38,514 nt of DNA from Gemmatimonadaceae bacterium. Lineage in GTDB: Bacteria; Gemmatimonadota; Gemmatimonadetes; Gemmatimonadales; Gemmatimonadaceae. Both the position numbers and the translations under genes were made by a program. Every line of letters starts with the position of its first letter. Position 1 is the stretch's first letter. The notes beneath the pieces are model-generated. The model saw nothing but the letters and a program-made list of their open reading frames with translations. It was not told the origin of the DNA and did not search any database. This document shows, piece by piece, positions 18,838 to 36,652 of the stretch. The stretch covers positions 1 through 38,514 of the forward strand of contig JACDDT010000019.1 of assembly GCA_013816855.1 (NCBI GenBank). Reading direction: 5' to 3'.

Positions 18838-19266
18838 CTAACCATCTCTAATTACCGTCCGGCGAAGGAATTCAAGCTCGCGTATCCAAAAGTCGCGATT
18901 GGGAAGCTCCGGGTGTGGAACGATTAGGCTCCGCGAATTAACAGTTTCACCTTCCATTGCTACTACATCCAGATCCAAAGTCCGCGGACCCCAGCGCGCG
19001 CCCCTCTTACGGCCGGCGGATTCTTCTATGAGCTGCAGCTCTTCCAATAGTGCCTGCGGCGCGAGTCGAGTTTTCACTGCGAGCATCTGGTTCAGGTAGT
19101 GGGGCTGCGCAATTGGTCCGAGAGGCGCCGTTTCCTCGACCGCGGTTTCCGCGATGCATTCAGTGCCCGGGAGCGCCGCGATCGCTTTGCGTGCTTCCAG
19201 CAAATACTTCTTACGATCTCCGATATTCGACCCCAGCGCTACGTAGAAGACTTTCGCCTTAGCCAC
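18838..19266 (-). CDS. folK: 6-hydroxymethyl-7,8-dihydropterin pyrophosphokinase
   Basis: Transfers pyrophosphate from ATP to 6-hydroxymethyl-dihydropterin in folate synthesis. 142 residues with all HPPK hallmarks: VALGSNIGDR, ETAPLGPIAQPHYLNQ and the GARWGPRTLDLDVV signature with its metal-binding aspartates, then IVPHPELPNRDFW. GTG start at 19266, overlapping folB by eight bases. Together with folB it converts dihydroneopterin to the activated pterin; folP and folE are not present here. Confidence 0.95.
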   Translation of the reverse strand: MAKAKVFYVALGSNIGDRKKYLLEARKAIAALPGTECIAETAVEETAPLGPIAQPHYLNQMLAVKTRLAPQALLEELQLIEESAGRKRGARWGPRTLDLDVVAMEGETVNSRSLIVPHPELPNRDFWIRELEFLRRTVIRDG

Positions 19267-19636
19267 GTGAGCGCTCGAGTTTGACCTCGGCGAATGCGAG
19301 CGGGCCGGGCAGCGCGACCTTCATTTTTCTGATCGCGACTGAAACACTATCCACGAGTGGCAGCGCCAGCGCGTCAGTGGCGATGCGCTCGGCAGCTTCC
19401 TCGAGATAATCGATATGTCCTGCGGTGATCACGCCTGCTGCGAGATCGTACGCGTGGCGATAATCCAGAATCTTGTGCATGTCGATTTTTCCAGTTGCCG
19501 CGGTCACGCTGAGCGAAAGATCGACCTCAATCGGCTGTGGGATTTCGGCTTCGTGCGGGAGTACCCCGATAAGTGCGTCGAACTTCATTGCGCGCAGAGT
19601 GATCACCGTCGCGCGACGCGGCGAATCAGGAGTCAA
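19259..19636 (-). CDS. folB: Dihydroneopterin aldolase
   Basis: Converts 7,8-dihydroneopterin to 6-hydroxymethyl-dihydropterin and glycolaldehyde, 125 residues. The N-terminal strand region ITLRAMKFDALIGVLPHE, IEVDLSLSV and the segment ending VSVAIRKMKVALPGPLAFAEV match FolB. The catalytic Lys is probably in IRKMKVALPG. The start taken is TTG 19636, with GAGGAC five bases upstream and overlapping the trpA stop by 11 bases. GTG at 19606 would give a start closer to most FolB proteins, but has no ribosome binding site. Confidence 0.9.
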   Translation of the reverse strand: MTPDSPRRATVITLRAMKFDALIGVLPHEAEIPQPIEVDLSLSVTAATGKIDMHKILDYRHAYDLAAGVITAGHIDYLEEAAERIATDALALPLVDSVSVAIRKMKVALPGPLAFAEVKLERSRG

Positions 19637-20420
19637 TCGCCGTCCTCAGCTCTTGGGTTAACCTGGACACTGACTCCGGAGAGACCGCCGCGGCCGACAC
19701 CAACGCGCTCCCGACGACACTGCCGTCCGCGAGCTGCGACACGTGCTTGGCCTGCTCCGCGGTCGAGATTCCAAATCCCGCACAAATCGGAAGTTTTGTC
19801 GCAGAGCGCAAACGGCCCACAGTCTCCGTCAACCCTTCCGGAGCAGTCGTCCTTGCACCCGTCACGCCAAGCCGGCTTATGAGATACACAAAGCCGCTGC
19901 CGTGCCGTGCTATCTCCGCCATCCGCTCCACCGGAGTTGTCGGCGCGACGAGCCGGATGAACGACAGCGGTCCGGACGAGAGCCATTCCTCGCGCGCGCT
20001 ATCAGAGCCAACGGGAAGATCTGTGAGAAGAATTCCACTCACACCGGCCGCGGCCGCGCGCTCGAGTATATCCGGCCCGCCCGCAATTACCGGATTCAAG
20101 TAGCTGAACAACACGATCGGCGCGCGCAGCTTCGCGGCGGAAGCGATCTCCAGCGTGCGCTCCAGAGTCATGCCGAGCTCCAGCGCACGCTGCGAGCTTG
20201 CCTGAATCACCGGCCCGTCAGCGATCGGATCGGAGAACGGAACTCCGAGCTCGATGATGTCCGCACCGCCCTCGTCGAGAGCGCGGAGGCATTCAATGGA
20301 ACGGGCGGCGTCTGGAAAGCCGGCGGTGAGATATCCTACGAGAGCGCGTTTCTTCTTCTGACGAAGCGCTGCGAAGGTCTCGTCGACGTTACTGGAGATA
20401 GTCGTTGATGTTGAGGCCAT
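19626..20420 (-). CDS. trpA: Tryptophan synthase alpha chain
   Basis: Cleaves indole-3-glycerol phosphate to indole and glyceraldehyde-3-phosphate. 264 residues from ATG 20420, the usual length; the frame stays open further upstream only over the HD gene. Catalytic Glu is in IIELGVPFSDP and catalytic Asp in PIADGPVIQ. The phosphate-binding region CAGFGIST and GSALV are intact. It overlaps the HD phosphohydrolase gene by 32 bases and folB by 11. It is separated from its partner trpB by two signalling-like genes, although the two chains form one complex. Confidence 0.95.
   Translation of the reverse strand: MASTSTTISSNVDETFAALRQKKKRALVGYLTAGFPDAARSIECLRALDEGGADIIELGVPFSDPIADGPVIQASSQRALELGMTLERTLEIASAAKLRAPIVLFSYLNPVIAGGPDILERAAAAGVSGILLTDLPVGSDSAREEWLSSGPLSFIRLVAPTTPVERMAEIARHGSGFVYLISRLGVTGARTTAPEGLTETVGRLRSATKLPICAGFGISTAEQAKHVSQLADGSVVGSALVSAAAVSPESVSRLTQELRTAIDS
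19642..19647 (-). promoter_or_regulatory. Ribosome binding site for folB TTG start
   Basis: GAGGAC on the minus strand, five bases before TTG 19636 and inside the 3' end of trpA. It supports this start over GTG 19606. Confidence 0.5.
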
Positions 20421-21861
20421 ACCGGTCTGCTTCGGCAGTTTTGATGATGGTGCGAGGGTATTCACCGCCCGCGTCCGGGATGGCGAGATCGGCAGTGAGC
20501 GGAGGATTCATCATCACACCTGTCGCATCGCACACGACGCGCACGATAGGCCGCGACAGCGCTTCCGGGTTCGGGTTCGCCGCGTACACCACCGCGAGCT
20601 CGAACGTATCGAGCACGACGAGAGTGCCCACCGGATAAATCCCGAGGAGGTTAATGAACGCCTTTACGACCACCGGATCCATTCCACGCTTTGGATTGTC
20701 GCGCATCTCCTGCAGAACGGCCGGCGGCGGAAACGGAACAGTCTGATACGCGCGTCTGGAGGTAGCGGCATCGTAGCCGTCCGCGACGGCGACGATTTTG
20801 CTCGTCATGCTCAGAGTGCGCGGGCGAAGGGACTTCGGGTATCCGGTGAGGTCCTGCTTCATGTGGTGCTCGTACGCAACCGTCATTGAGCGATACGACA
20901 GCTGCTCCTGCTGGCGGCGGAATTGGAACAACGCCAGGACGCCGAGCCAGGGATGTGAAGCCACCCAGCGCCATTCGTCCTCCGTGAGATCCCCCGATTT
21001 CTGGAGGAGATCGACCGGCACTCGCGATTTTCCGATGTCGTGCATCAAGCTCGCCAGTCCGAGCTCGTAGAGCTGCAGCTTCGTCATTCCAAGCCGGCGG
21101 CCCAATGCGACGGCGAAGATGCAGACGTTCACGCTGTGCGTGAACGTGTACTCGTCGTAATCGCGAATGGCGGTGAGACCGATGAGGGAAGTTTCTTCAT
21201 TCAGAATTTGGTCGACGATTCCCTGCACCACTCGCTTGATCTTCCGCATACTCGGCGTTTTACCCATGCGCACCGAGTTGATGACATCCTTCGTAACGGC
21301 AACGGATTGGGAATATGTCCGATTCGCAGCCGCCTTCGTCTGCTCTGCGAACTGTCGATCACTCTCGTTTTCGAGAGGGGGCCCGAGCTCGAAGGCCGTA
21401 ATCCCGGCGTCGGACAATGCCTGCGCGATTTTGTCATAACGCTCGTCGGGTGACTCCTTCGCCTGCGAGTCGAGGCGCGTGATGAAGACCGTCCAGTCGC
21501 GGGGAGTCGTTGTGCCCGTGACCGTTATCGCGCCGATCCCCCCTGCTTTGCAGAGAGTGAGGAGATGGCCGAAGCTCGCGTAGTTGCTGAGATCGAGCCG
21601 GAGGCGCGTTTCGTTGATGAAGATGAACTCGCCGGAAATTCGGAGCTCGAGCTCGCCTTCCTCCTCGCGAATGTCGCTCGTAATCTGCGAGAGCTCGCCG
21701 AGCGTCTTCTGCACCGCGCTGTGCTCCAGCGGGTAGAGCTTCATCGCTCGAAGCGCCGCGTAAAAAGAAATGATGAAATTCCTGCCTGCGCGTCTCACAT
21801 TGGCGGAGCCCGCGTCACCGGCCCTGTCCTCCGCGCGAATCTGGGCTTCGCCTGACGTCAT
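20389..21861 (-). CDS. HD-GYP-like phosphohydrolase with N-terminal partner module
   Basis: 490 residues. An N-terminal alpha/beta module (about 29-130) resembles the N-terminus of the HEAT protein encoded just upstream. The HD domain follows: His242, His274-Asp275 in LMHDIGK, His303, His332-His333 and Asp361 in AVADGYDAATS. The GYP loop reads EHHMKQDLTGYP, so the metal ligands and Gly-Tyr-Pro are kept but the usual HHE and DG are changed. HD-GYP enzymes hydrolyse cyclic di-GMP or related nucleotides; whether this one does is unclear. ATG 21861 overlaps the HEAT gene stop (ATGA), and the 3' end overlaps trpA. The 60-residue tail has no recognised domain. Confidence 0.82.
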   Translation of the reverse strand: MTSGEAQIRAEDRAGDAGSANVRRAGRNFIISFYAALRAMKLYPLEHSAVQKTLGELSQITSDIREEEGELELRISGEFIFINETRLRLDLSNYASFGHLLTLCKAGGIGAITVTGTTTPRDWTVFITRLDSQAKESPDERYDKIAQALSDAGITAFELGPPLENESDRQFAEQTKAAANRTYSQSVAVTKDVINSVRMGKTPSMRKIKRVVQGIVDQILNEETSLIGLTAIRDYDEYTFTHSVNVCIFAVALGRRLGMTKLQLYELGLASLMHDIGKSRVPVDLLQKSGDLTEDEWRWVASHPWLGVLALFQFRRQQEQLSYRSMTVAYEHHMKQDLTGYPKSLRPRTLSMTSKIVAVADGYDAATSRRAYQTVPFPPPAVLQEMRDNPKRGMDPVVVKAFINLLGIYPVGTLVVLDTFELAVVYAANPNPEALSRPIVRVVCDATGVMMNPPLTADLAIPDAGGEYPRTIIKTAEADRYGLNINDYLQ

Positions 21862-23549
21862 GTGGTAGGCGCTCCTCTAATGGCGCGTGAGACGGCGTTG
21901 CGAACGATGATCTCCTTGTCTGCCGATGCCTTATTCAGAGAATCAAGCGCGCGCTGCGATCCAATCTTCCCCAGCGCCATAGCAGCGCATGCGCGCATCT
22001 CGATGTCTTCCTTTTTGGCGAGGAATCCTTTCGCGTGAAGCAGACCATCGAGGAGCGGGATGCCCTGATCGCCGCACAAAGTCCCGTACGCTTCGAAGAA
22101 TGCCATCTTCTCGGTGAGATTCGCTTCGCGGATTTCCTTTCCCTTCACCGTCGTCTCGATGCGCGGCAGCGCGGGTTTGGAGCCGCGCGCGCCAAGTGCC
22201 CGCACAGCAGCAATGCGAATGTCTCGGTCTTCGTCGGAGATTGCGCGCTCGAGTACTTGAAGCGCGCCCGGGGATCCGATCTCCGTAAGCGCGGTCACCG
22301 CCGCGATGCGAATCTCCGGCGCCGCCACCGTAAGCAGCCGGCCGAGCGCGGGAACAGCAGCGGGCGTCTTGAGAGCGGCAGCTCTCCTAATGGCTTCCGT
22401 GACGACGACATCGTCGTCTGACCCGATCAGGCGAATGAGCTCGCCGGTATGTGACGCGGCAAGCCGCGACGCGGCATTCTCAAGGAGCGCACGGAGCTCC
22501 GCGTTATTGCTTCGGCCGATCCAACCGAGGACAGTCTCCAGCGCGCGTGGCTTTAGCTGGAGGAAAAGCTCGTTCAGCTCGACTTGAGGTGGACGAAGCG
22601 CGGTGTCTTCGAGCGCTTGGAGAAGTTGTGAAAGCGCGGAAGGATCGCTCAGCAGCTCGGCGAGGTCGGTGAGCCGCTGGCGCTGCGGCTGGAGAATCTC
22701 GGCGGCACGCTCCGCGGTGGTGCTTGCCTCGCGCAGCAGATAAGCGGCTGTACGGAATTGTGTCGTGGACAACAGAACCAGCAGGAAATAATCGAGAATG
22801 CCGCAGATCTCCTCGCGTACAGTCGGATCGCTCTCCCGCTCGAACGTGTCAAAGAGCGATGCGAGAACGGGACCGCGAAGATCCGACGAGAAATCCCGCT
22901 TGATCTCACCCTGGAGGTATTCGATCTCGCGGTCGTCGAGGAAATAAAGGGTGGAGTCGTAATCCTCCATCTTGGCGAGGGAAGACTTGAGCGGAGTATC
23001 CGCCTCCGCCTGCGCGGGCGCCATAATCCGTTCGCGAGTCTCGCTTGGCTCCATTCCCTCGAGCTCGCTCATCCCCTCCGATCCGATATCGACGTACTTG
23101 TACTGCAGCGCCGAGAATTCCGCCTCCCAGAGCATGGTGAGAAGATCATCATCATCAGCGGACGCTTTGCGCACGCGCTGAAGAATGTCGAGCAGGAGAT
23201 TGAGGTCCGCGCCCTCGAAGCCCTTCTCCATTCGCAGCTCGCGAATGCCGTCCTTGTAGAAGGTCCACGGCAAGCTGTCCGTCGCGCGATCGGCCTCTTC
23301 GAATACCGGGCGCTTTTCCCAAAGGAACTCCGTCTCCGACATCTGAAGCTCGATTGAGTCCGTTTGCGTCCAGAGCGCAACGAACGATTCGCGCACCGCA
23401 TCGAGAGCGCGGGCGTGCATCGGATTATTCGGCAGATAAAGCTGATAGGCGCGTACCGCTTTGCCGAACGCCTTCAGCGCCTCCAACACGAAGCTCTGCG
23501 GAAACGGCGGCTCGTCGAGTTCTTCGGCGGGCGCGAGGGGAATCGTCAC
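21858..23549 (-). CDS. HEAT-repeat protein with N-terminal module shared with the HD protein
   Basis: 563 residues from GTG 23549, which overlaps the trpB stop (GTGA). Residues about 20-126 form a helix-helix-strand module ([20 protein letters not shown] ... [17 protein letters not shown] ... [16 protein letters not shown]) that parallels residues 29-130 of the HD protein. The middle is mostly helical. From about 330 to the end there are HEAT-like repeats, for example [40 protein letters not shown] and a last one ending in [12 protein letters not shown]. No signal peptide is visible, so it is probably a cytoplasmic scaffold. Its function is unknown. Pairing with the HD enzyme is suggested by the shared module and the translational overlap. 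Confidence 0.78.
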
Positions 23550-24730
23550 TGGGCGGTAAGACCAAGCGTCGTAAGCTGCGCGACGTCTTTGTCGCCGCGT
23601 CCGCTCACGCAGATCAGCACGGCATCGTCCGGCGACCACCGCTCGCGGTTCGCATCAACCCACGCGATTGCATGCGCCGTCTCAAGCGCGGGAATTATTC
23701 CTTCAAGCCTGCTCAGCAGCTGAAGCCCTTTCAGGGCGTCGTCGTCGCTGATTGCGACGTACTCTGCTCTTCCCGAATCTTTCAGGAACGAGTGCTCCGG
23801 GCCGACGCCGGGGTAATCGAGCCCCGCGGAAATGGAGTGCGCCGGATGCACTTGCCCATCTTCGTCCTGAAGCAAATAGCTGAGCGCTCCGTGAAGGACT
23901 CCCGGCTCACCACGCTGCAAGGACGCAGCATGCTCTCCGGAATCCAAGCCGCGCCCCGCCGCTTCGACGCCAACGAGCTCGACATCGCGGTCTTCTACGA
24001 AGGGATGAAAAATGCCCATCGCGTTTGAGCCGCCGCCAACGCAGGCAACCACCGTCTTCGGAAGCCGCCCGGCGCGCTCCATCATCTGCGATTTCGCTTC
24101 ACGACCAATGATCGACTGAAAGTCGCGCACCATTCTCGGGTAGGGCGCCGGACCAACTACTGAGCCTATTATATAGTAGCTGTCGCCGACGTTCGTCACC
24201 CAGTCGCGAATCGCTTCACTCGTCGCGTCCTTTAATGTGCGCGTCCCGGACGTGACGGGAACGACCTTCGCGCCGAGGAGCTTCATGCGGTATACGTTGA
24301 GCTCCTGACGGCGAATGTCCTCCTCGCCCATGTACACGGTGCAGTCCAATCCAAACCGCGCGCAGATCGTCGCCGTAGCTACTCCGTGCTGACCCGCGCC
24401 AGTCTCGGCGATGATGCGTAGCTTCCCCATCCGCCTTGCGAGAAGTGCTTGACCAACGGTGTTGTTGATCTTGTGGGCGCCGGTGTGATTGAGATCTTCG
24501 CGCTTGAGGTAAACCTGGGCGCCAACACGCTTCGAGAGTCTCGGCGCATCGCTCAGTGGAGACGGCCGTCCGACGTAATTCTCGAGCAGCCCGTCCAGCT
24601 CGGCGCGAAACGTCTCATCGGCCATCGCCTCGTCGAACGCTGCGTCGAGCTCGTCGAGAGCGGGGATCAACGTCTCAGGGACGTAGCGCCCGCCGAAAAC
24701 ACCGAAGCGACCGGCTTCGACGGTGCTCAA
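23546..24730 (-). CDS. trpB: Tryptophan synthase beta chain
   Basis: PLP enzyme condensing indole with serine, 394 residues. Lys87 in [10 protein letters not shown] is the Schiff-base lysine, at the same number as in the Salmonella enzyme. [24 protein letters not shown] and the C-terminal CVSGRGDKD are intact. The start is TTG at 24730, overlapping the trpF stop (TTGA), so translation is coupled. It is a TrpB1-type chain expected to pair with TrpA. Confidence 0.97.
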
Positions 24731-25377
24731 GCGAACCGCTCCATGCCGCCTACCGAATCCGCGAAGTCACGCATCAGCTGGTGATCCTTCGCTCCGGGGG
24801 ACTCCTCGACGCCTGAAGAAACGTCCACTACATCAGGAGCGAGATCCCGCAAAGCAATGCCAACGTTCTGCGGCGTGAGTCCACCGGCGAGAATGATGAG
24901 GCTTCCTGTGCGTGCGCGCGTGATTTCCGGCGCGAGCTCATGCCACGGGAGCGTTTTTCCGGATCCGCCGAGCTTGCCGGGAGTTTTCGCGTCGAGCACG
25001 ACTCCGTCAGCAGCGTCCACGAGCTCTTCAATCGAATTCGAAACCGACGAGCCTTCGATTCGAAGCGCAGCCCACACGTCTCCACCGAAGCTACTGCGCA
25101 CGGCGTGGACGTCGTCCGGGGTTGGATCGGCGTGAAGCTGCACGACGTCGAGCTCCACCGCGTCCGCGACGCGACCGATCTCACGCACGTCATTCGTTCC
25201 AAAAACTCCAACGCGCAAGGCGCCGCCGATCGAGTCGAAAATCTTGCGCGCTGAGTCGACCGTCACCTGCCGCGGCCCCTGTGCGAAGACGGCGCCGATG
25301 TAGGACGCTCCGATCTCGGACGCGAAGCTGGCGTCAGCGTGGCGGGTCATGCCACAGAATTTAATTCGCGCGTGCAT
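24727..25377 (-). CDS. trpF: Phosphoribosylanthranilate isomerase
   Basis: Third step of tryptophan synthesis, an Amadori rearrangement. 216 residues with the N-terminal signature IKFCGMTR (catalytic Cys), [12 protein letters not shown] and the C-terminal [26 protein letters not shown] (catalytic Asp region). It starts at 25377 and overlaps the trpC 3' end by 17 bases. It is encoded separately rather than fused to trpC as in enterobacteria. Confidence 0.96.
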
Positions 25378-26221
25378 TCCTGGTCCGTTTTACCGAGGCG
25401 AGCTCTTCGAGAAGTGAAGCCGGTGTTAACGATACTGAAAGCTCGGAGCCAATGAGCACGGCATCTGCCCCTATGCTTGCCGCGCGCATTACATCGTCCC
25501 GTGTACGGTAACCGCTCTCGGCAACGGCTATGCATTTCCGCGGAATTAGTGGCAGCACGTGTTGCGCAGCGTCGTCCATCTCCAGCGTTTCGAGGTTTCG
25601 GTTGTTTACTCCGATTATCGTCGCGCCGATGGAGACGGCCGTCTCGAGCTCCGCCCCATCGCGTACTTCCACGAGCGCGTAGAGGCGGCTCTCGACCGCA
25701 CACCGGAAGAGCTCCTTCAACTGCGATGGATCCATCGCGCGGGCGATGAGTAGTACGGCCGAGGCGCCGGAAGCTCTCGCCTCCAGAATCTGCAGCTCGT
25801 CAACGATGAAATCCTTGCGAAGGAGCGGGAGGGCGCACGCCGTGCGAGCGGCCACGAGATCTGCAACTTTTCCGGCGAATCGCGCGGGCTCGGTTAGAAC
25901 GGAGATGGCTGCGGCACCGCCTGCTTCATAGGCGCGGCATTGTTCTCCAACATCGAGCGCCTCATTGATCGCCCCCTTCGAAGGAGATGCGCGTTTCACC
26001 TCCGCGATCACTGCCACTGTGTCCCCCGAGAGCGCGTCGAGAAAACTCGGCGCCGGCGGGGCAGACGAGACGCCTGCGCGGAGGTCACCTGCCGACGGGC
26101 GCAGCGCTTGTGCCCGTGTTTGCGCCGCCGCGACCAGCTCCCCCAGCACGCCTCCCGGTGGCGTCCACTTTTTCGAGCCTTGCACTTCGGTGGTTCTTCG
26201 GCTTATCTTGGAATTCGGCAA
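25361..26221 (-). CDS. trpC: Indole-3-glycerol phosphate synthase
   Basis: Closes the indole ring in tryptophan synthesis. 286 residues from TTG 26221; GTG 26185 (274 residues, starting just before WTPPGGVLGEL) is equally plausible. The catalytic motif IAEVKRASPSKG, LLRKDFIVDELQI, ALVEVRDGAELE and GVNNRNLETLEMD are intact. It is the first gene of the trpCFB-HEAT-HD-trpA run. It is divergent from lexA, and its 5' end overlaps the proposed lexA promoter. No clear trpC promoter of its own was seen in the 55 bases to the lexA ATG. Confidence 0.95.
   Translation of the reverse strand: MPNSKISRRTTEVQGSKKWTPPGGVLGELVAAAQTRAQALRPSAGDLRAGVSSAPPAPSFLDALSGDTVAVIAEVKRASPSKGAINEALDVGEQCRAYEAGGAAAISVLTEPARFAGKVADLVAARTACALPLLRKDFIVDELQILEARASGASAVLLIARAMDPSQLKELFRCAVESRLYALVEVRDGAELETAVSIGATIIGVNNRNLETLEMDDAAQHVLPLIPRKCIAVAESGYRTRDDVMRAASIGADAVLIGSELSVSLTPASLLEELASVKRTRNARAN
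26180..26209 (+). promoter_or_regulatory. Candidate lexA promoter
   Basis: TTGCAC (26180-26185) and TATCTT (26204-26209) are spaced by 18 bases and each matches four of six sigma-70 consensus positions. Transcription would start near 26216, giving a leader of about 60 bases before lexA. The site lies within the first codons of the divergent trpC gene. Confidence 0.4.
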
Positions 26222-26227
26222 ATGTTC
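26213..26227 (+). promoter_or_regulatory. Candidate LexA operator, ATTC-N7-GTTC
   Basis: A direct repeat with the 11-base period of the alphaproteobacterial SOS box (GTTC-N7-GTTC), differing in one base. It sits across the predicted lexA transcription start, where autoregulation would be expected. It also overlaps the trpC TTG start, so LexA binding could affect trpC. No Gram-positive type (GAAC-N4-GTTC) or E. coli type box was found. Confidence 0.4.
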
Positions 26228-26245
26228 GGTTCCGGTGAAGTCCTA

Positions 26246-26264
26246 CCGGTTCACCCCCAACCGG
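26246..26264 (+). repeat. Hairpin in lexA leader
   Basis: CCGGTT pairs with AACCGG around a 7-base C-rich loop, 12 bases before the lexA ATG. It would form in both the lexA leader and any transcript toward trpC, and may affect ribosome access or bind protein. No ribosome binding site stands between it and the ATG. Confidence 0.35.
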
Positions 26265-26276
26265 CCGAGTTATCTA

Positions 26277-26885
26277 ATGTCGTTAACGAAACGCCAGCGT
26301 GAGATTCTGACCTACCTTGGGGAGTATTCCGAGGGAAACGGCTATGCCCCGAGCTTTGAGGAGATTGCGGCGAAGTTTAACTATAACTCGCTCGCGACGG
26401 TGCACGAACACCTCACCAACCTCGAGCGCAAAGGGTACATCAAGCGCGCATACAATGAGAGTCGTGGGATAGAGGTTCTCCCCTCTGACATCCATCCCCG
26501 CGCCACTTCGCTCCCGCTGCTTGGCTCCGTCGCCGCCGGCATGCCGATCGAGGCGATTCAGACGAATGAGATGATTGGAGTTCCCGAGGACTTCGTGCGC
26601 CGGAGCGGAAGCCACTACGTTCTGCGCGTTCGAGGGAACTCCATGATCGACGAGCAGATCAGGGATGGAGACTTCGTCATCGTTAACGAACGACACGCAG
26701 CTGACAACGGAGAGACGGTTATCGCGCTCGTCGACGGAAACTCAGCCACGGTGAAGAAGTTTTATCGTGAGCGCGATGGCCGAATCCGCCTCCAGCCCGC
26801 GAACGAAACGATGGCGCCGATCTACGTGCACGAGAACGACATTTCCATCCAGGGAGTGGTCGTCGGGGTATTGAGAAAGTGCTAG
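26277..26885 (+). CDS. lexA: SOS repressor LexA
   Basis: Repressor of the SOS DNA-damage regulon, 202 residues, the E. coli length. Winged-helix N-terminus (MSLTKRQREILTYLGEY to about 70) and S24-type autoprotease: cleavage site Ala87-Gly88 in SVAAGMPIE, nucleophile Ser122 in RGNSMIDEQI, and catalytic Lys160 in SATVKKFY. ATG 26277 is chosen; the frame stays open upstream only because it runs antisense through trpC. The gene stands alone on the plus strand between trpC and trpD of the minus strand. It has its own candidate promoter, operator and strong terminator. Confidence 0.96.
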   Translation: MSLTKRQREILTYLGEYSEGNGYAPSFEEIAAKFNYNSLATVHEHLTNLERKGYIKRAYNESRGIEVLPSDIHPRATSLPLLGSVAAGMPIEAIQTNEMIGVPEDFVRRSGSHYVLRVRGNSMIDEQIRDGDFVIVNERHAADNGETVIALVDGNSATVKKFYRERDGRIRLQPANETMAPIYVHENDISIQGVVVGVLRKC

Positions 26886-26913
26886 AGGAGTGAAGCGCTA
26901 AGTCTTTCCTTGA

Positions 26914-27951
26914 TCACGTCTTGGCATAGGCGCTCCGGAGCTTCTGGAGCGCCTTTTTTGCGCTGCCGGTTTCGATTGACCGCGAGGCAAGAGCGACAGC
27001 GTCGGCGAACGTCTTCTCGGCGCCGCCGACGTAGATCGCTCCCGCGGCGTTGAGGACGACAGCAGCCCGAGCGGCTTCCCTTCCCTTGTTGTCGAATATC
27101 TCCTCGATAATCCTGGCATTCTCTTCGGAGCTTCCGCCGGCAAGATCCGACTCCTTACCGCCCCCGAGTCCGAAACTCCTCGGCTCGATAGTCCACTCCG
27201 TAGTCTTCCCGCCGCCAACCTCGAGCACCTGGGTCGTGCCAAGCGGAGAAATCTCGTCCAAGCCGGGCTCTCCGTGAACGACCAGGGCGTGCTTGGTGCC
27301 GAGCGAGAGGAGCGCATCAGCGAGTATCGGGGCGCGGTCGAAGTCCGAGACGCCGACCACTTGCTTCCCCGCCCTTGCCGGGTTGGCGAGCGGGCCGACG
27401 ATGTTCATAACGGTAGGAATGGCGAGCTCGCGCCGAACCGGACCCACGTGACGCATGGCCGGGTGCATCAGCGGGGCGAACATGAAAACCATTCCGGTGT
27501 CCTCGAGCGCCTTCTCCATAACCTCGATCGGAACCTCGATCTCGATACCGAGCGCCTGCAGAACGTCCGCGCTGCCGCAGCGAGTGGTGAACGATCGATT
27601 TCCGTGCTTCGCGATGCGCACGCCGGCGCCCGCAGCGACGAAAGCCGCAGCGGTCGAGATGTTGAAGGTCGGGACAGTTCCCCCGCCGGTGCCGCACGTG
27701 TCGACGAGCGAGTCGGGATCCCTCGCGGGAAGGACGACCATCGCTCGACGAAGCGCGCGCACCACACCCGCTACCATTTCCGAGGTTTCACCGACGGCCC
27801 GCATCGCGGCGAGCAGCGCCGCAACCTGCACCTCGGTGCCCTGCCCCCGCATGATGACGTCGAACGCTTCTTCCGTATTCGCCGAGGTAAGAGGCTGATG
27901 CGCAGCCAACTTTTGAATCGCGCCGTTCAGCGCATTCGCCGCCGGCTGCAT
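26914..27951 (-). CDS. trpD: Anthranilate phosphoribosyltransferase
   Basis: Second step of tryptophan synthesis, joining anthranilate to phosphoribosyl pyrophosphate. 345 residues with the glycine-rich PRPP loop DTCGTGGGTVPTFNIST, then KHGNRSFTTRCGSADVLQALG (Phe replaces the usual Val/Ser), FAPLMHPAMRHVGPVRREL and GPLANPARAGKQVVGV. ATG 27951 directly follows the TAG of the GAF/coiled-coil gene. trpE and trpG are not in the window. lexA separates it from trpC, so trpC needs either its own promoter or readthrough antisense to lexA. Confidence 0.96.
   Translation of the reverse strand: MQPAANALNGAIQKLAAHQPLTSANTEEAFDVIMRGQGTEVQVAALLAAMRAVGETSEMVAGVVRALRRAMVVLPARDPDSLVDTCGTGGGTVPTFNISTAAAFVAAGAGVRIAKHGNRSFTTRCGSADVLQALGIEIEVPIEVMEKALEDTGMVFMFAPLMHPAMRHVGPVRRELAIPTVMNIVGPLANPARAGKQVVGVSDFDRAPILADALLSLGTKHALVVHGEPGLDEISPLGTTQVLEVGGGKTTEWTIEPRSFGLGGGKESDLAGGSSEENARIIEEIFDNKGREAARAAVVLNAAGAIYVGGAEKTFADAVALASRSIETGSAKKALQKLRSAYAKT
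26929..26959 (+). terminator. Rho-independent terminator of lexA, inside trpD
   Basis: GGCGCTCC and GGAGCGCC form a perfect 8-bp GC-rich stem with a 9-base loop, directly followed by six T. It lies 43 bases after the lexA stop. The whole element is inside the last 16 codons of trpD, where the opposite strand encodes KKALQKLRSA. On the minus strand the hairpin is preceded, not followed, by the homopolymer run, so it should not stop trpD transcription. Confidence 0.9.
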
Positions 27952-28863
27952 CTACTGCGCCTCGGCTGACGGAGTCGAGCTGACTACCGCCAACAGGTCT
28001 TCGACGAGCTTGTGCGAGTCGCCCGCTGAGCTGTCACGCAGCATCCGCTCGACACGGTAAAGAAGATTCCGCTGCTGCGTGATTGCTTCATTCTGCTCAT
28101 ACAGCTGGCGATGTGCCTTCTCCAGCCGCCCGACGGCGGATTCGACCTGTTCCTCGACAGCGCCGAGGCGCTGAGCAGTGGCTCGCGCATCGACGCGCGC
28201 CTTCTCAGCGGCTGCCTCCAGCTCTGCGATCCGTTTTTCTGATTCGGTCTCGTCGCCGCTCGCGGCGGCCCGTGCGAGCGCTAGCTTCCGTTCGAGATCG
28301 GCGATGATGCGTGAATGCTCTTCATGGAGCTGACGGGTCAACTGCTCGAGGCGCGTCGTCGCCTCGATGCGGGCCTCACGCTCCGAGACCCTTTCAAAGG
28401 CAAGTGCGAAGAGATCGACGGCGGGCGAAATCCTCTCGGATACTCGCGCCCCGAATACACGCTTGGGCTCCTGCAATGCCACGATCCCGGCTAGCTCCCC
28501 GTCAAGCGTACACCCGCGAAGTAGAAACGCGCCGCTTTCCTGTGCGGCGGGAAAGCCGAGTAGCTTCATGTAGTCGTCGGATTGCGCCCCGAGATCGGAG
28601 AATTGCTTCGACAAAAGCAGCGCTTTTCGAATGGGCCCGGGGAAATGATCGAGTGACACGCCAAGCTCGGAAGCCTTCGGGATACCGTCTACGATGGACG
28701 TGCGACGACAAAGCACCGCACGCTGCTGATCGTACTCGAACACAGCCAGCTGGGCAGCGCGATCGACCTCGGCGAGCTCCTGCGCGAGCGCCGACAGCGC
28801 TTCAGGCAGAGAGCGGGCAGCGCTAAGTACCGCGGACAATCCGGCGAGGGTGCGTGATGCCAT
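27952..28863 (-). CDS. GAF-like/coiled-coil protein of unknown function
   Basis: 303 residues. The N-terminal half (about 5-155) has GAF-like features, ending with a strand pattern GAFLLRGCTLDGELAGIVAL and VDLFALAFERV. From about 160 to 275 there is a long charged coiled coil (for example LEQLTRQLHEEHSRIIADL and RIAELEAAAEKARVDA). The C-terminus is short and Ser-rich. No catalytic, DNA-binding or membrane segment is visible. It ends with TAG immediately before the trpD ATG, so the two are probably cotranscribed. A sensor or scaffold role is inference. Confidence 0.65.
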   Translation of the reverse strand: MASRTLAGLSAVLSAARSLPEALSALAQELAEVDRAAQLAVFEYDQQRAVLCRRTSIVDGIPKASELGVSLDHFPGPIRKALLLSKQFSDLGAQSDDYMKLLGFPAAQESGAFLLRGCTLDGELAGIVALQEPKRVFGARVSERISPAVDLFALAFERVSEREARIEATTRLEQLTRQLHEEHSRIIADLERKLALARAAASGDETESEKRIAELEAAAEKARVDARATAQRLGAVEEQVESAVGRLEKAHRQLYEQNEAITQQRNLLYRVERMLRDSSAGDSHKLVEDLLAVVSSTPSAEAQ

Positions 28864-28883
28864 GAAAGCAGGTGGGCTGAGGC

Positions 28884-28904
28884 GATGCGGACAGGCGTCG
28901 CATC
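28884..28904. repeat. Inverted repeat upstream of the GAF gene
   Basis: GATGCG and CGCATC are separated by nine bases, 20 bases upstream of the minus-strand ATG at 28863. It could be an operator or a leader hairpin of the GAF-trpD transcript. No regulator is implied. Confidence 0.3.
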
Positions 28905-28953
28905 TTCATCACTTGCGCTGGGAAAGTCAATCATCGGCAACGCTTTGCGTTCC

Positions 28954-28981
28954 TTGACACCCCCTCTGTCGAGGATAATTT
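28954..28981 (+). promoter_or_regulatory. Candidate truA promoter, possibly leaderless
   Basis: A perfect TTGACA (28954-28959) is followed after 16 bases by TAATTT (28976-28981); GATAAT at 28974-28979 is a better -10 match but at only 14 bases. With the first choice transcription would start at or next to the truA ATG at 28988. GAGG 13 bases before the ATG is a distant Shine-Dalgarno candidate if the transcript is longer. Confidence 0.45.
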
Positions 28982-28987
28982 CTCGCT

Positions 28988-29764
28988 ATGCCGTCACGCA
29001 GCATTCAGCTTGTGTTGCATTACGACGGATCACGCTTCTCGGGATGGCAGCGCCAGCCGGCGGACCGCACTGTTCAGGGCGTGATGGAAGCGGCGATAAG
29101 CAGAATCTGCAACGAGCCGGTAACGGTGGTCGGCGCAGGAAGAACAGATGCTGGGGTTCACGCGCGCGGGCAGGCGGCGGGCGTGAGGGTGCCGGATAAA
29201 TGGCGTGCAGGCGACCTTCGCCGCGCCATAAACGCGATTTTACCGGAAGACGTATGGGTGCGCTCCGCGTTCGAGATGCGTGACGATTTTCATCCGCGCT
29301 ACAGCGCGACTTCGCGCACATACCGGTACTTCGTCGCCACCGACGCCGAGGCCTCGTCTCCCTTCCGCTCACGCACCGAGCTCGCGTGGCATCGTCTTCT
29401 CGAGGTGGAGCTACTGAGTGACGCGGCGGCGCGCGTGCGAGGCGACCATTCGTTTCGCGGATTCGCCGTTAAAGGAACCGCGCCGGAAGACGACAATCAC
29501 CGGTGCACCGTGAGCCGGGCGGAATGGTCAAACCGCGAAGGCGGACTGCAGTTCGAAATTCAGGCGAACCGCTTTCTGCATCACATGGTGCGATTCCTCG
29601 TCGGAACGATGCTCGACATCGGCAGCCGGAAGCGCGGCGTCAACGACATCGCCACCATTCTCGAGAGCGAGGACAATTCGCTAGTCTCACCTCCCGCGCC
29701 CGCACACGCCCTCTATCTCGAGCGTGTCGAATATCCTTCCGAACTTTATCTGGACCCAAAATGA
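28988..29764 (+). CDS. truA: tRNA pseudouridine(38-40) synthase
   Basis: Forms pseudouridine at positions 38-40 of the anticodon arm, 258 residues. Catalytic Asp54 is in AGRTDAGVHARGQ; LHYDGSRFSGWQRQP at the N-terminus and FLHHMVRFLVGTMLDIG near the C-terminus are family hallmarks. ATG 28988 begins the long plus-strand run. Its TGA overlaps the next gene's ATG (ATGA at 29761-29764). Confidence 0.96.
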   Translation: MPSRSIQLVLHYDGSRFSGWQRQPADRTVQGVMEAAISRICNEPVTVVGAGRTDAGVHARGQAAGVRVPDKWRAGDLRRAINAILPEDVWVRSAFEMRDDFHPRYSATSRTYRYFVATDAEASSPFRSRTELAWHRLLEVELLSDAAARVRGDHSFRGFAVKGTAPEDDNHRCTVSRAEWSNREGGLQFEIQANRFLHHMVRFLVGTMLDIGSRKRGVNDIATILESEDNSLVSPPAPAHALYLERVEYPSELYLDPK

Positions 29765-30426
29765 ACATTTACCTCGAGAGCGTTGATCTCGATGAGATAC
29801 AGAAAGCCGCGGCTTCGGGAATTGCCGATGGCATTGCTTTCTCCCACGCAACTCTCTCTGCGGACGCACCGGACGCCGACGCGAATGAGCGGCTGGCGGA
29901 GATCGCACGCGCATTTGCCCTTCCCGTGTGTGCCGCCGTCGGCTCGGTGAGCAGCGGAGATATCTATCGCGAAGGGCGCGAGTTGGCGAAGCTCTCCGAC
30001 CACATCATCGTCGAAGTGCCCCTCATAGAGGACGCGCTGGACCCGATGCACCGGCTCAATGCGGAAGGCGTCACGGTGTGCGCGGCGTTCGTATACACGG
30101 GGGCGCAGGCGCTGCTTGCGGCAAAGGCTGGAGCGTCCATCGTCCGGGTGATGGTCGACGACCTGGATGCGCACGGGCAATCCGGCAGTGGCGCGCTCTC
30201 CGAGATAAAAACAATTCTCGAATCGGCCGGCGAGGAATGCGACGTAATGGTGGGATCACCTTCGAACGCAAGCCAGTTCTCCGAAGCAGTGCTCTCGGGT
30301 GCCGATATTGTTTGCGTTAAGCCAAGCGTTCTTCATTCCCTCATCACTCACCCGCTTACCGATCGAGGAGTGGACAAGTTCCTGAACGAGCTGTCGAAGC
30401 GTCCGAGAGGGCGGACACAATCCTGA
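29761..30426 (+). CDS. Transaldolase/FSA-like protein lacking the Schiff-base lysine
   Basis: 221 residues, the size of E. coli fructose-6-phosphate aldolase (220), and alignable to it by eye along its length. Examples are MNIYLESVDL at the start, VEVPLIEDAL, AGASIVRVMVDDLDAHGQSG and HPLTDRGVDKFLNEL. The lysine that forms the Schiff base (Lys85 in FSA, VVKVP) is Glu85 here (IIVEVP). The TTNPS-like motif reads AFSHAT, and Asp6 is Glu6. Ordinary aldolase chemistry is therefore unlikely; a non-catalytic or altered role is inferred. It overlaps truA by four bases and the HtrA gene by one, so it is part of the same run. A longer frame starting at 29503 only re-reads truA. Confidence 0.85.
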   Translation: MNIYLESVDLDEIQKAAASGIADGIAFSHATLSADAPDADANERLAEIARAFALPVCAAVGSVSSGDIYREGRELAKLSDHIIVEVPLIEDALDPMHRLNAEGVTVCAAFVYTGAQALLAAKAGASIVRVMVDDLDAHGQSGSGALSEIKTILESAGEECDVMVGSPSNASQFSEAVLSGADIVCVKPSVLHSLITHPLTDRGVDKFLNELSKRPRGRTQS

Positions 30427-31802
30427 TGAGATTCGGTATCGCGCTTCTCTCCGCAGCGACGATCGTTGCCTGCGAGGGCACGCCGTCCGCGTCTTCCGCC
30501 CAAACTCTCCCCAGCTCCGAGGCGATCTCGGCTTCGCGGCGCACCGCTATCACGGACGCCGTTGCGCGCGTCGCGCCGTCCGTCGTCACAGTGCAGACGG
30601 AAGTAATCGAGCGTGTTGCAGCCGACGTATTCGAGCAATTCTTCGGCGGACGGTCTGGCCAGCGCGCGGCGGCAGGCCTCGGCTCGGGTTTCATCATTCG
30701 CTCCGACGGAACGATCGTCACCAACGCGCACGTCATCAGCGGCGCCTCGAAGATTTCCGTCGCCCTCCGCGACGGCACCACCTACCCCGCGAAACTCCTC
30801 GGGTCGGACGAAGCGAACGACTTAGCCGTGATCAAGATCGATGCGAAGAATCTTCCCGTCGCTCCCCTCGGCAGCTCTTCCAAACTCATCGTCGGAGAAT
30901 GGGCGATCGCCATCGGCAATCCTTACGGATTTTTGCTCGCGAACTCGGAGCCGAGCGTAACCGCTGGCGTCGTTAGTGGCACGGGACGGAATCTCGCAAC
31001 CGAGAGCGAAGGCGCCGGCGTCTACGTGGATATGATTCAGACCGATGCCTCGATCAATCCGGGGAACTCCGGTGGACCGCTGGTCAACGCAGCAGGCGAA
31101 GTGATCGGAGTGAACAGCTCGATCTTCTCGCCCAGCGGCGGGTCGATTGGGCTCGGCTTCGCGATTCCGATCAACCGCGCGAAGCGGGTGGCGGACGATC
31201 TGCTGGCCCACGGCGTCGTGCGGCGGCCCTGGATCGGGATTCAACCACAGCTTACGGCGCGCAACACAAGCAGCGGCCCAAGTGCCGGCGTTACTGTCGC
31301 CTCGGTTGTGCCCGGCTCCCCTGCGGCCCGGGCAGGAATTCGCGCCGGCGACGTTCTCGTTCGTTCACGTGAGCGCGTGCTGCATAACGCGTACGATTGG
31401 TTCGCCGAGCTTCTAGAGCTTCGCGTGGGTGAGCGCGTCAACCTTACGGTTCGCCGCAACGGGCATGACATGCCGATGCAAGTCTCGGTAGAAGATCTGC
31501 CCGACGTCAATGCGCCCCGGGTAACGGTGCTCAGCGAGCTCGAGCTCCTCTCGGTTACGCCGGCGATCAGGGGCGAGCGGCAAATCAGGAGCACGCAGGG
31601 CGCGCTCGTTGGGAAAGTCACCGATAGGATAAGAACACAAATTGGGCTCGAGCCCGGCGACGTCATCGTTCAGATCAACCGCACTCCGGTCACCGACGCA
31701 CCATCGGTGGAACGAATTCTGAATGCGTACGGACGCGGCATCATCAGACTTTATTTCGAGCGCGGCGGGCAGATTTACTCCACTGAATTCGGACTGCAGT
31801 AA
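30426..31802 (+). CDS. HtrA/DegP-type serine protease, predicted lipoprotein
   Basis: Envelope quality-control protease, 458 residues. A short signal sequence ends in the lipobox-like TIVAC (Cys16), so membrane anchoring by lipid is predicted. The catalytic triad is His102 (VTNAHVI), Asp132 (NDLAVIK) and Ser215 (NPGNSGGPLV). Two PDZ domains follow: PDZ1 at about 265-345 (VVPGSPAARAGIRAGDVLV) and a shorter PDZ2 at about 385-458 (QIGLEPGDVIVQINRTPV). ATG 30426 overlaps the stop of the transaldolase-like gene. purB follows after three bases, so the protease is likely cotranscribed with purine genes. Confidence 0.93.
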   Translation: MRFGIALLSAATIVACEGTPSASSAQTLPSSEAISASRRTAITDAVARVAPSVVTVQTEVIERVAADVFEQFFGGRSGQRAAAGLGSGFIIRSDGTIVTNAHVISGASKISVALRDGTTYPAKLLGSDEANDLAVIKIDAKNLPVAPLGSSSKLIVGEWAIAIGNPYGFLLANSEPSVTAGVVSGTGRNLATESEGAGVYVDMIQTDASINPGNSGGPLVNAAGEVIGVNSSIFSPSGGSIGLGFAIPINRAKRVADDLLAHGVVRRPWIGIQPQLTARNTSSGPSAGVTVASVVPGSPAARAGIRAGDVLVRSRERVLHNAYDWFAELLELRVGERVNLTVRRNGHDMPMQVSVEDLPDVNAPRVTVLSELELLSVTPAIRGERQIRSTQGALVGKVTDRIRTQIGLEPGDVIVQINRTPVTDAPSVERILNAYGRGIIRLYFERGGQIYSTEFGLQ

Positions 31803-31805
31803 CCC

Positions 31806-33233
31806 GTGACCGAGACTTATAGCTCCCCTCTCGTCGAGCGCTACGCATCGGAAGCGATGCTCGCCCTGTGGTCTCCGCAAACGCGGTACAGTCTCTGGCG
31901 GAGCCTCTGGCTCGCTCTCGCCGAAGCCGAGCGCGATCTCGGTGTAGCGATCCCGGAGAGCGCCCTCAAGCAAATGAAGTCCAAAGTCGACGACATCGAT
32001 TTTGCTTCTGTCGCATCCTACGAAAAGAAGCTGCGCCACGACGTGATGGCTCACGTTCACGCTTTCGGTGACGTCGCGCCCGACGCGCGGCCATTCATTC
32101 ACCTCGGCGCGACGAGCGCGTTCGTCACGGACAACGCCGATCTCATTCTCATGAGGCGCGCGTTGTGGCTGCTGCGCGATCGCGTGACGGAAGTATTGCG
32201 ATCGCTCGCTGATTTCGCGCTTCAATGGCGGGCAGAGCCGACACTGGGATACACGCATCTTCAGCCCGCGCAGCTAACAACCGTTGGGAAGCGCGCAACG
32301 CTGTGGATGCAGGATTTGGTGCTGGATCTCAAAGACATCGATTACCGTCTCGAGACGCTGCCCTTTAGAGGAGTGAAAGGCACGACGGGAACGCAGGCGA
32401 GCTTTCTCGAGATTTTCGAAGGCGATCACGCCAAAGTTCGAAAGCTCGACGCGATGGTCACGGAGAAGATGGGATTCAGCTCGCATCTCGCGGTTACCGG
32501 GCAGACGTATTCGCGAAAGCTGGACGCGGGCATTCTTGGTGTGGTTGCCGGCGTCGCGAGCTCTGCGGCGAAATTCAGTGGTGACATTCGCATGCTCCAG
32601 TCGTTCGGCGAGATCGAAGAGCCCTTCGACAAATCGCAGATCGGCTCGTCAGCGATGGCGTATAAGCGGAATCCAATGAGATCGGAGCGGATCGCTTCCC
32701 TGACGCGATTCGTGCTTTCGTTGGAGCCAAACGCGAACCAGACACACTCCGTTCAGTTCCTGGAGAGGACTCTCGACGATAGTGCGAACCGCCGCCTGGT
32801 CATACCCGAAGCATTCCTCGCTACCGACGCAATACTGCTTCTAATGCTGAACGTGGCTTCGGGGCTGAGCGTGAACCGCGAGGTGATAAAGCGCCGTGTC
32901 GCCGACGAGCTGCCGTTCATGGCGACAGAGAAGCTGATCATGCGAGCGGTCCGCGCAGGGGGCGACCGCCAGGATGCGCATGAGACAATCCGCCGACACA
33001 GCATGGAAACTGTAAAGGCGATGCGTGAATCCGGAAAGCCGAACGATCTGCTTGACCGCCTCGCGTCGGACAAATCACTTGGAGTATCAAGCGGCGAATT
33101 GAAAAAGGAGCTCGCCGCTGAAAGGTTCACTGGCCGAGCGGCAGAGCAGGTCGATGAATTCTTGACAGAAGTTGTTACTCCGCTTCTAAGCCAGAAGCGC
33201 GCAAGAGTGTCCGCCGAAGACCTGCGAGTCTGA
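31806..33233 (+). CDS. purB: Adenylosuccinate lyase, human-type
   Basis: Cleaves SAICAR and adenylosuccinate, releasing fumarate, in purine synthesis. 475 residues from GTG 31806. The fumarase/ASL signature is [15 protein letters not shown] (Ala where most enzymes have Pro), and [14 protein letters not shown] is present. By eye the whole chain follows human ADSL rather than the 430-residue B. subtilis form: the start [54 protein letters not shown] and [11 protein letters not shown]. It overlaps purC by one base (TGATG). Confidence 0.95.
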
Positions 33234-34162
33234 TGCTCATCGGGACCACTGCCCTACCGCTCCAGACAATTCGACGAGGAAAAGTTCGCGATGTGTACGC
33301 GGTCGACGCGGAGACGGTGCTTCTCGTGGCGACCGACCGCGTGAGCGCGTTCGACGTTGTCATGCGCGAGACGATCCCGGACAAAGGCGTGGTTCTTACT
33401 CAGCTATCGGCTTGGTGGTTCGAGAAGCTCGGCGGTGCGGTGAAGCATCACATGATCTCTGCCGATACAGCGGAGATCCTCGCACGAGTGCCCGAGCTCG
33501 CTCCCCATGCCGACGAACTCAGCGGGCGGTCGATGCTCTGCCGCCGCGCCGACATTTTCCCCGTTGAATGCGTCATCCGCGGGTACCTGAGCGGCTCCGC
33601 CTGGAAGGAGTATGCTCAGCAGGGGACGCTTGCCGGCGAAAAGCTAAAGACGGGGATGCGCGAGTCGGATCGCTTCGATGCACCAGTATTCAGTCCGGCC
33701 ACGAAAGCGGAGGAAGGCCACGACGAAAACATCACCATCGTGCGAATGAATGAGGTTGCCGGCCAAGCGGCCGTAGAGCTCGAGGGTTTGACGCGGCTCG
33801 TGTATGAGTTCGGACGCGAAATCGCGGCGGATCGCGGGATTATCATCGCCGATACCAAGCTCGAATTCGGCCGAGCGCTCGCGAGCGACGGCGAAGAAGA
33901 GATTATATTGGTGGATGAAGTTCTCACGCCCGACAGCTCGCGATTCTGGCCCGCTAACAGGTACGTCCCGGGTGGTCCGCAGCCGAGCTTCGACAAGCAG
34001 CCGCTCCGTGATTATCTCGACTCCGAGCGCGCAGCGGGCCGCTGGGACGGAAACGCGCCCCCTCCGCCGCTCCCTCCAAAAGTGATAGTTGAAATGAGCG
34101 CCCGTTACCGTTCGATATTCGAGATGCTGACCGGCTCCTCCCTTTCACTGGTGAGCATATGA
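33233..34162 (+). CDS. purC: SAICAR synthetase
   Basis: ATP-dependent ligase joining CAIR with aspartate, 309 residues, the longer form as in yeast and many bacteria. Hallmarks are [48 protein letters not shown] and [16 protein letters not shown] 33233 overlaps purB, and the TGA overlaps the psd ATG (ATGA). The Pro-rich segment near residue 280 is a flexible loop. Confidence 0.96.
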
Positions 34163-34806
34163 CCTTCGCCCGCGAGGGATTCCCGTTCATAGCTATCGCG
34201 AGCTTGCTCGCTGCGGGCGCGTTCGCCCTCGCGGTGAATCGCCGCTCCTGGGGCTTCTGGCTCATCGCACTGGTGCTGCTCATTCTCGCGCTGTGGGTCG
34301 CGTATTTCTTTCGCGATCCGGAACGCAGCGGTCAGCGTGGACCAGCCCTCGTCATATCTCCCGCCGACGGCAAGCTGATCATGATCACTGAAGTCGACGA
34401 GCCTTCATTCATTGGCGGCAAGGCGATGCGCCTTTCCATCTTCATGAATGTCTTCAACGTCCACGTGAATCGTTACCCGACCGACGGCGTCGTCAAATAC
34501 CTGCATTACAACAAGGGGAAGTTTTTCAACGCCTCATCGGAGAAATCCAGTCTCGAGAACGAGCAGCAGTCGGTCGGGCTGGAGACGGCGCACGGAAAGA
34601 TTCTTGTGCGCCAGATCGCCGGTCTCATCGCGCGACGAATCGTCACTTACAGCAAAATAGATGAGAGCGTGCGTCAGGCAGATCGCATGGGCATGATCCG
34701 GTTCGGCTCGCGCGTCGACGTCTTTATTCCGATGAATGCGAAGATCGTCGCCAAAAAGGGCGACATCACCAGCGCGGGCGTAACCCTTCTCGCAGAGCTG
34801 CCCTAA
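34159..34806 (+). CDS. psd: Phosphatidylserine decarboxylase proenzyme (short type)
   Basis: Makes phosphatidylethanolamine. 215 residues of the archaeal/short PSD type. Two membrane segments at about 8-25 and 33-51 are followed by the core with SPADGKL and [12 protein letters not shown]. The self-cleavage site that forms the pyruvoyl group is Gly183-Ser184 in RFGSRVDVF. It overlaps purC by four bases and pssA by one (TAATG), so lipid and purine genes are in one transcript. Confidence 0.94.
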
Positions 34807-35729
34807 TGCTTCCGCCCGATCACACCCGGGTAGTCGCGCGCGACAACGGCGAGCGCGTTTCGCGTCGCAGCATCGTGGTGCTTCCGAACGGATTTACGCT
34901 TTTCAATTTGCTTTGCGGAATGTTCGCGATCGTCAGCGCCTCGCGCGGCGATTTCAACATCGCCGCCTTCGCAATTGTCTCCGGCGGAGTGGCCGATGCT
35001 CTCGACGGCAGAGTTGCGCGGGCGACAGGTACCGGCTCGCGATTCGGATCCGAGCTCGATTCACTCGTCGATGCCATATCGTTCGGCCTGGCGCCGGCGC
35101 TCATCATGTACTTCGCGGTCTTCAACAAGGGCCGCTGGGATTGGCTGTTCTGCTTTTTCTTCACCGCCTGCGCAGTAATCCGCCTCGCCCGATTCAACAT
35201 CGAGCAAGCCGGCCGCGAAAAACGCTATCACCACGGGTTGCCGAGCCCTGCCGCCGGACTCACGCTCGCGACCTACTACTGGTTCAGTCAGACGCCGCTG
35301 TACAACGAGACGATGCTCGGCGACCTGAACTGGACCGTTGCGCTCACGATACTGATGATGCTGCTCGCGTTCTTGATGATAAGCAACGTCTCTTATCCTG
35401 CGGTCCCCACTATCGGGTTCAGGAAGCTCAGCGAGATACTGGGCACGATTGTCGTGGTGGCGGCGGTGCTCGGAGTGTTTTTCCTGCGGAAGGAGTTCTA
35501 CTTCCCGGCCCTCGTGCTTTACGTGCTTTATGGCATTGCGAAGACGGTCATATTCGGCCTGCTGGGGCGTGGTCCGAAAGACGACGCGCCGGTCATCAGT
35601 GACGACGAGCCGTTGTTGGATGAGGCCGACTTCGATGAAACGCCGCACCGGAGCTCGAGACGGCGCCGCAAGCGGAAACACCGTCCCTCCACGCCGCTCG
35701 GGAACCCGCTGCCACCCGGAGAAATGTAA
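34806..35729 (+). CDS. pssA: CDP-diacylglycerol-serine O-phosphatidyltransferase
   Basis: Makes phosphatidylserine, the substrate of Psd encoded just upstream. 307 residues and about eight membrane helices. The CDP-alcohol phosphatidyltransferase motif is complete: Asp64, Asp67-Gly68, Ala71-Arg72, Gly81, Asp85 and Asp89. The basic C-terminal tail after about 270 (SSRRRRKRKHR) is cytoplasmic and of unknown use. It starts at ATG 34806; purS begins one base after its stop. Confidence 0.95.
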   Translation: MLPPDHTRVVARDNGERVSRRSIVVLPNGFTLFNLLCGMFAIVSASRGDFNIAAFAIVSGGVADALDGRVARATGTGSRFGSELDSLVDAISFGLAPALIMYFAVFNKGRWDWLFCFFFTACAVIRLARFNIEQAGREKRYHHGLPSPAAGLTLATYYWFSQTPLYNETMLGDLNWTVALTILMMLLAFLMISNVSYPAVPTIGFRKLSEILGTIVVVAAVLGVFFLRKEFYFPALVLYVLYGIAKTVIFGLLGRGPKDDAPVISDDEPLLDEADFDETPHRSSRRRRKRKHRPSTPLGNPLPPGEM

Positions 35730-35730
35730 C

Positions 35731-36650: not shown

Positions 36651-36652
36651 TC

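Follow-up and report, generated by a model that had tools for sequence, protein, structure and literature searches.

The part of Woodard and Wood's study drawn on here describes convergent genes of Rickettsia, most of whose transcripts show no termination, or no site-specific termination, between the two genes (PMC3027695). In Staphylococcus aureus, menE-menC-MW1733-ytkD-MW1731 is given as a noncontiguous operon in the portion of a review cited here (PMC7154746), and lexA antisense RNA arises in that species by read-through of the sbrB terminator, according to the section of the report used (PMC8745188). In contigs from the Sargasso Sea, lexA has been placed after trpC, as an excerpt of that paper states (PMC2395257). 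Among the open-access matches listed, nothing decisive concerned terminators inside facing genes, and no paper on the Gemmatimonas trp operon was found in the open-access literature. Here we analyse a window, meaning the whole stretch of 38,514 nucleotides of contig JACDDT010000019.1 from a Gemmatimonadaceae bacterium, in which lexA faces trpD and a terminator-like element occupies the end of the trpD reading frame.

A terminator-like element in the last codons of trpD

The lexA gene (26277-26885, plus strand) encodes an SOS repressor of 202 residues that matches TIGR00498 with 203 bits (cut-off 110.95), as well as PF01726 and PF00717. Facing it on the minus strand, trpD (26914-27951) encodes an anthranilate phosphoribosyltransferase of 345 residues (TIGR01245, 378 bits, cut-off 199.05; PF00591) whose stop codon occupies 26914-26916, and the convergent pair spans 26277-27951. 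Directly before trpD lies a minus-strand ORF of 303 residues (27952-28863) that had no Pfam or NCBIfam match at 0.001. The genome under study (G000) also carries a second, distant LexA-like protein (L119, G000:C99:1285-1875; 37% identity), and such a distant copy is likewise present in many members of the genus and family.

On the plus strand, the element reads as a 5' stem arm, AGGCGCTCCGGA (26928-26939, read from the sequence and found by the hairpin scan), a GCT loop of 3 nt (26940-26942) and a 3' stem arm, TCTGGAGCGCCT (26943-26954; loop and 3' arm by hairpin scan and fold), followed by a T6 tract (26954-26959, read from the sequence), the first T of which is also the last base of the stem. 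The sequence-only reading had described a perfect 8-bp stem plus T6; this core is indeed perfect, but the full stem is longer, with 12 bp including one G-U pair, and is G+C-rich, with a folding energy of -21.9 kcal/mol. The T6 abuts the hairpin with zero gap, and 42 nt separate the lexA stop codon from the stem. Three sequence hallmarks of an intrinsic terminator are found together here, namely a stable, G+C-rich, short-loop hairpin, an adjacent T-run and a gene on the same strand shortly upstream.

Hairpin and T6 lie entirely within trpD codons 331-342 of 345, as had been claimed from the letters: the trpD frame on the minus strand (26914-27951) encloses 26928-26959 completely. The T6 had been read as two lysine codons; on the trpD strand it takes up the whole of Lys332 (AAA) and two bases of Lys333 (AAG), but also one base of Ala331. 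These codons come after the catalytic domain that Pfam gives for TrpD (residues 81-331), yet the TIGR01245 model (residues 12-339) covers part of them. No T-tract follows the stem on the trpD strand, which indicates that a terminator at this site would work one way only. In a search for exact copies, the core palindrome, with its 8-bp arms and a spacer of 9 nt, has a single site in the 2.47-Mb genome assembly, which rules out a repeat element, and a known RNA family was ruled out because Rfam gave no match in the window at gathering scores.

Codon choice in the TrpD tail and conservation among relatives

Over the whole window and both strands, this is the strongest terminator-like site, the runners-up reaching -14.1 and -13.6 kcal/mol, which bears out the earlier description of a strong terminator-like signal. 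We then held the TrpD protein fixed and redrew its last 20 codons by the codon usage of 24 ORFs of the window. Only 1 of 20,000 synonymous recodings carried a hairpin and T-tract as strong, and a hairpin as strong appeared in 3 of 3,000 when the T-tract was ignored; T6 alone turned up in 2,512 of the 20,000, and 1,228 of the 20,000 had a T-tract together with a hairpin of -10 kcal/mol or stronger. Synonymous codon choice in the TrpD tail is bent towards the hairpin and T-tract. The feature was singled out for being striking; for something as rare as 1 in 20,000, about 0.007 occurrences would be expected over 131 genomes.

A simple pattern scan of positions 19000-38514, half the window, gave 13 terminator-like sites against 17.0 expected from shuffles, that is, no excess, and the fold of 66 nt stands out only to a moderate degree (z = -2.36; 6 of 200 shuffles equally stable). 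In the 70 genomes that have both neighbours, a smaller set than the later set of loci, the stretch downstream of lexA is enriched in terminator-like sites on the lexA strand: 8 of the 70 have one within 180 nt (12.6 kb in total), against a background in the same genomes of 1 match in 51 kb antisense inside trpD and none in the 40.5 kb occupied by lexA itself.

The first search gave LexA matches for 98 of 99 genomes, our own genome counted; some of these matches are fragments or represent the distant second copy alone. All 19 genomes of the genus search had a match, which for G006 was the second copy alone, as did 148 of 150 in the phylum search. We compared 173 lexA loci, leaving out the LexA matches of G103, G104, G154 and G178, and scanned the downstream region in 169 of them, one lexA stop lying beyond the contig and three loci having too little sequence after the gene. 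At -12 kcal/mol or better, no terminator-like site was found in 148 of these 169 regions. When 4 or more T of 8 were required, sites lay inside trpD in three genomes (G000, its congener G003, and G015), straddled the trpD stop codon in two (G017 and G147), preceded trpD in nine, and occurred at seven loci without trpD within 800 nt; at 5 T of 8, only G000 and G003 retained a site inside trpD, with G017 straddling the stop. In most relatives, no intrinsic terminator can be recognised downstream of lexA. The trpD stop codon overlaps or passes the lexA stop codon in 30 of 131 genomes, which means that any lexA terminator there must be inside trpD; no site at -12 kcal/mol or better was found in the stretch scanned in those 30.

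Within the last 24 trpD codons, 126 of the 131 genomes with a readable trpD end showed no hairpin with T-tract, and 14 of 17 genus members with such an end, G000 included, had no 5-T-of-8 site at -10 kcal/mol or better. When the recoding test was applied across the 131 genomes, p <= 0.01 was reached only by G000 (0 of 2,000) and G003 (14 of 2,000), and p <= 0.001 by G000 only. The three terminator scans, which use the same kind of scanner, agree on these two genomes. The TrpD tail motif is widely kept, its anchor being present in 108 of the 131 tails; the other 23 were without it, and stem pairs were counted in fixed columns on the 108. All 12 pairs form in G000 only, while the other 107 tails keep 1 to 9, and a conserved, covarying stem was rejected on this ground. 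The sequence-only reading had raised covariation of the two arms among trpD 3' ends: the arms do not covary, and relatives keep TrpD and lose the stem, an outcome that this reading had itself named as refuting it.

At the same codons, G003 has a different hairpin and T-run (-17.3 kcal/mol), shifted in register by 3 nt and retaining 5 of the 12 pairs of G000. In a tree of 21 rows built from LexA and part of TrpD, G000 and G003 are successive branches outside a clade of nine genomes, with supports of 89/90 and 92/89. These values fall under the program's 95/80 mark; either two gains or one gain with drift and loss may lie behind this order, and the hairpins of G000 and G003 are possibly one terminator drifting between the two. 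Among the species compared, the terminator looks peculiar to that of G000.

Readings of the element

The stretch 26928-26959 is very probably the intrinsic (Rho-independent) terminator of lexA, one-directional and lineage-specific, with termination in the cell, and selection for it, inferred from the sequence. RNA polymerase leaving lexA would transcribe 42 nt past the stop codon, and the 12-bp G+C-rich hairpin with U6 would then set it free once the 3' UTR had reached about 74 nt, so that it would not go deep into trpD in antisense; codon choice in the TrpD tail would have been shaped to let one set of bases do both jobs. The loop of only 3 nt, the lack of conservation of the stem in relatives and the pattern scan of half the window, with its lack of any excess of such sites, count against this. 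A chance origin is unlikely in comparison: the C-terminal motif of TrpD, Ala-Leu-x-x-Leu-Arg-x-Ala, readily yields palindromes when its codons are rich in G+C, and the two lysines would supply the T-run; lexA would in that case end by Rho or have no terminator. The frequency with which recodings gave T6 alone, or a weaker hairpin with T-tract, would fit such an origin, as would the many relatives in which no terminator was found after lexA and the genomes G012 and G015, which have a similar protein motif but no such stem. What speaks for a terminator of lexA instead is the single recoding in 20,000 that equalled the hairpin with T-tract, the three in 3,000 that equalled the hairpin alone, and the isolation of G000 at p <= 0.001 among 131 genomes.

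The trpD transcript contains the same palindrome close to the stop codon, and there it could act on that mRNA, by protecting the 3' end or by coupling to trpC, and not on lexA; with no T-tract on that strand, the stem within translated codons and the T-run on the lexA side, we regard such a role as very improbable. Slightly less probable still is a dual-use element of the convergent lexA-trpD pair that is conserved and kept by covariation. The hairpin and T-run of G003 at the same codons, rare under recoding, and the G017 hairpin straddling the trpD stop would agree with it, but the G003 stem stands in another register with 5 of 12 pairs kept, most genus members have no comparable site, and across genus and class the great majority of tails (126 of 131) and downstream regions (148 of 169) are without one, the complete set of pairs being confined to G000. 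The comparison thus lends no support to a dual-use element under conservation. The dual use that the sequence-only reading had called clear holds in so far as the codons of the TrpD C-terminus appear to form a textbook terminator; its evolutionary maintenance is not supported. A lexA terminator restricted to this lineage would be a neat example, confined to one species, of how the choice of codons at the end of a facing gene can make room for a strong regulatory signal.

lexA within the trp cluster and its probable operator

The gene order on the trpD strand is trpD, reversed lexA, trpC, trpF and trpB (trpF and trpB named by eye), with trpC (25361-26221, minus strand, PF00218) divergent from lexA; a tentative start of the trpC frame is a TTG (26221) that falls within the operator described below. 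Between trpB and trpA (20389-23639) lie two long minus-strand ORFs that by eye are HD-GYP-like and HEAT-repeat-like. An antisense lexA between trpD and trpC (25361-27951 here) was found in 127 of 170 genomes of the class, comprising 15 of 18 at genus rank, 51 of 59 at family, 25 of 41 at order and 36 of 52 at class rank, and in 0 of 3 outside the class. The remaining 43 divide into 14 loci cut by contig ends on a side that matters, 14 with trpC only, 14 with neither gene and 1 with trpD only.

The 14 genomes with trpC beside lexA and no trpD within 800 nt have room for it in their loci, which extend to about 2 kb. By a rough criterion, the lexA strand carries the longest ORF nearby in 6 of them, and G021 has a trpD-like match starting 1.7 kb on. 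That trpC stays by lexA without trpD suggests that lexA is more closely tied to trpC than to trpD and that a separate promoter may serve trpC there. A gene on the opposite strand, lexA, lies between two genes of one pathway, trpD and trpC, as in a noncontiguous operon, and this placing invites a reading of trpD-trpC as a putative one. An obligate noncontiguous operon is weakened by the same 14 genomes, where no trpD lies within 800 nt. In keeping with such an operon, terminator-like sites of the intrinsic kind on the operon strand between trpD and trpC amounted to 1 (in G026) in 54 kb from 70 genomes, and a trpD-side terminator was rejected on this count together with the lack of a T-run on the trpD strand here.

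Upstream of lexA and on its strand, TTCGG-N6-TTCGG occurs as a direct-repeat pair at 26186-26201 and again at 26214-26229 (together 26186-26229; from the genus alignment and from genome and class scans), around a probable lexA promoter (26180-26208) with TTGCAC (26180-26185), a 17-nt spacer and TTATCT (26203-26208). The promoter was read by eye from the genus alignment; the pattern scan of 19000-38514 did not pick it up. With 3 of the 173 loci omitted for too short an upstream region, the repeat, with a period of 11, is present within 160 nt before lexA in all 167 class genomes, in 148 of them in at least 2 copies, and in 0 of the 3 genomes outside the class; as a control, 2 such sites occur in 1.36 Mb of the same loci on both strands. 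A frame homologous to trpC reaches an operator site in 94 of 146 genomes. Outside the class (G101 and G100; L212 and L213), a similar repeat with TTCGC halves and a period of 11 precedes lexA, as seen by eye.

Our genome has 14 TTCGG-N6-TTCGG sites against 4 for a reversed control pattern. Two are at lexA, one precedes a DnaE-type polymerase (PF07733, PF02811), one an ORF whose Y-polymerase domain is marginal (PF11799, 21.0 bits, cut-off 20.7), one an ORF with an ImuA match far below the cut-off (33 of 150 bits), one a DUF5131 protein and one a radical SAM protein; the genes after these five sites away from lexA, among them translesion-polymerase-like ones, we take to be SOS genes, and the other 7 of the 14 sites have no clear SOS gene. 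The repeat is probably the LexA operator of Gemmatimonadetes. The operator of Alphaproteobacteria is GTTC-N7-GTTC, to which the period of 11 is similar.

One tentative, rather doubtful possibility is that the nesting of lexA antisense in the trp cluster throughout the class Gemmatimonadetes couples the DNA-damage response to tryptophan synthesis: trpD-trpC transcription would cross lexA in antisense, LexA bound at TTCGG-N6-TTCGG would block or time it, and the terminator would here shield trpD from lexA read-through. We see in this neighbourhood a more notable lead than in the terminator; it makes a possible link between DNA damage and amino-acid synthesis directly testable. By title, the open-access literature on LexA in Gemmatimonadetes or Gemmatimonadota held nothing on this operator or placing, and no title among the open-access matches listed concerned a LexA-binding motif of the phylum; for the probable operator combined with the class-wide antisense placing of lexA, we found no description for the phylum in open-access titles.

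Compared with the systems described elsewhere, the probable lexA terminator shares with intrinsic terminators at convergent gene pairs a G+C-rich hairpin followed by a T-run after the stop codon; in the part cited of the Rickettsia study, the two predicted terminators are called bidirectional and lie between the genes, whereas that of lexA would be one-directional and lie inside the codons of the facing gene (PMC3027695). The S. aureus noncontiguous operon, in the review's account as cited, likewise has an opposite-strand gene amid others, the place taken here by lexA between trpD and trpC; by contrast, 14 genomes keep trpC at lexA with no trpD within 800 nt, and trpD-trpC is a candidate for co-transcription across lexA (PMC7154746). 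Like S. aureus lexA, as characterised in the relevant section of that study, the lexA gene of this locus faces an opposite-strand neighbour whose transcription may enter it in antisense; in S. aureus it is the neighbour's terminator that governs lexA, whereas here lexA's own putative terminator was found and none on the trpD side in this genome (PMC8745188). In the Sargasso Sea contigs, as far as the excerpt goes, lexA adjoins trpC as it does here, with the difference that in our genome lexA stands before trpC and on the opposite strand (PMC2395257).
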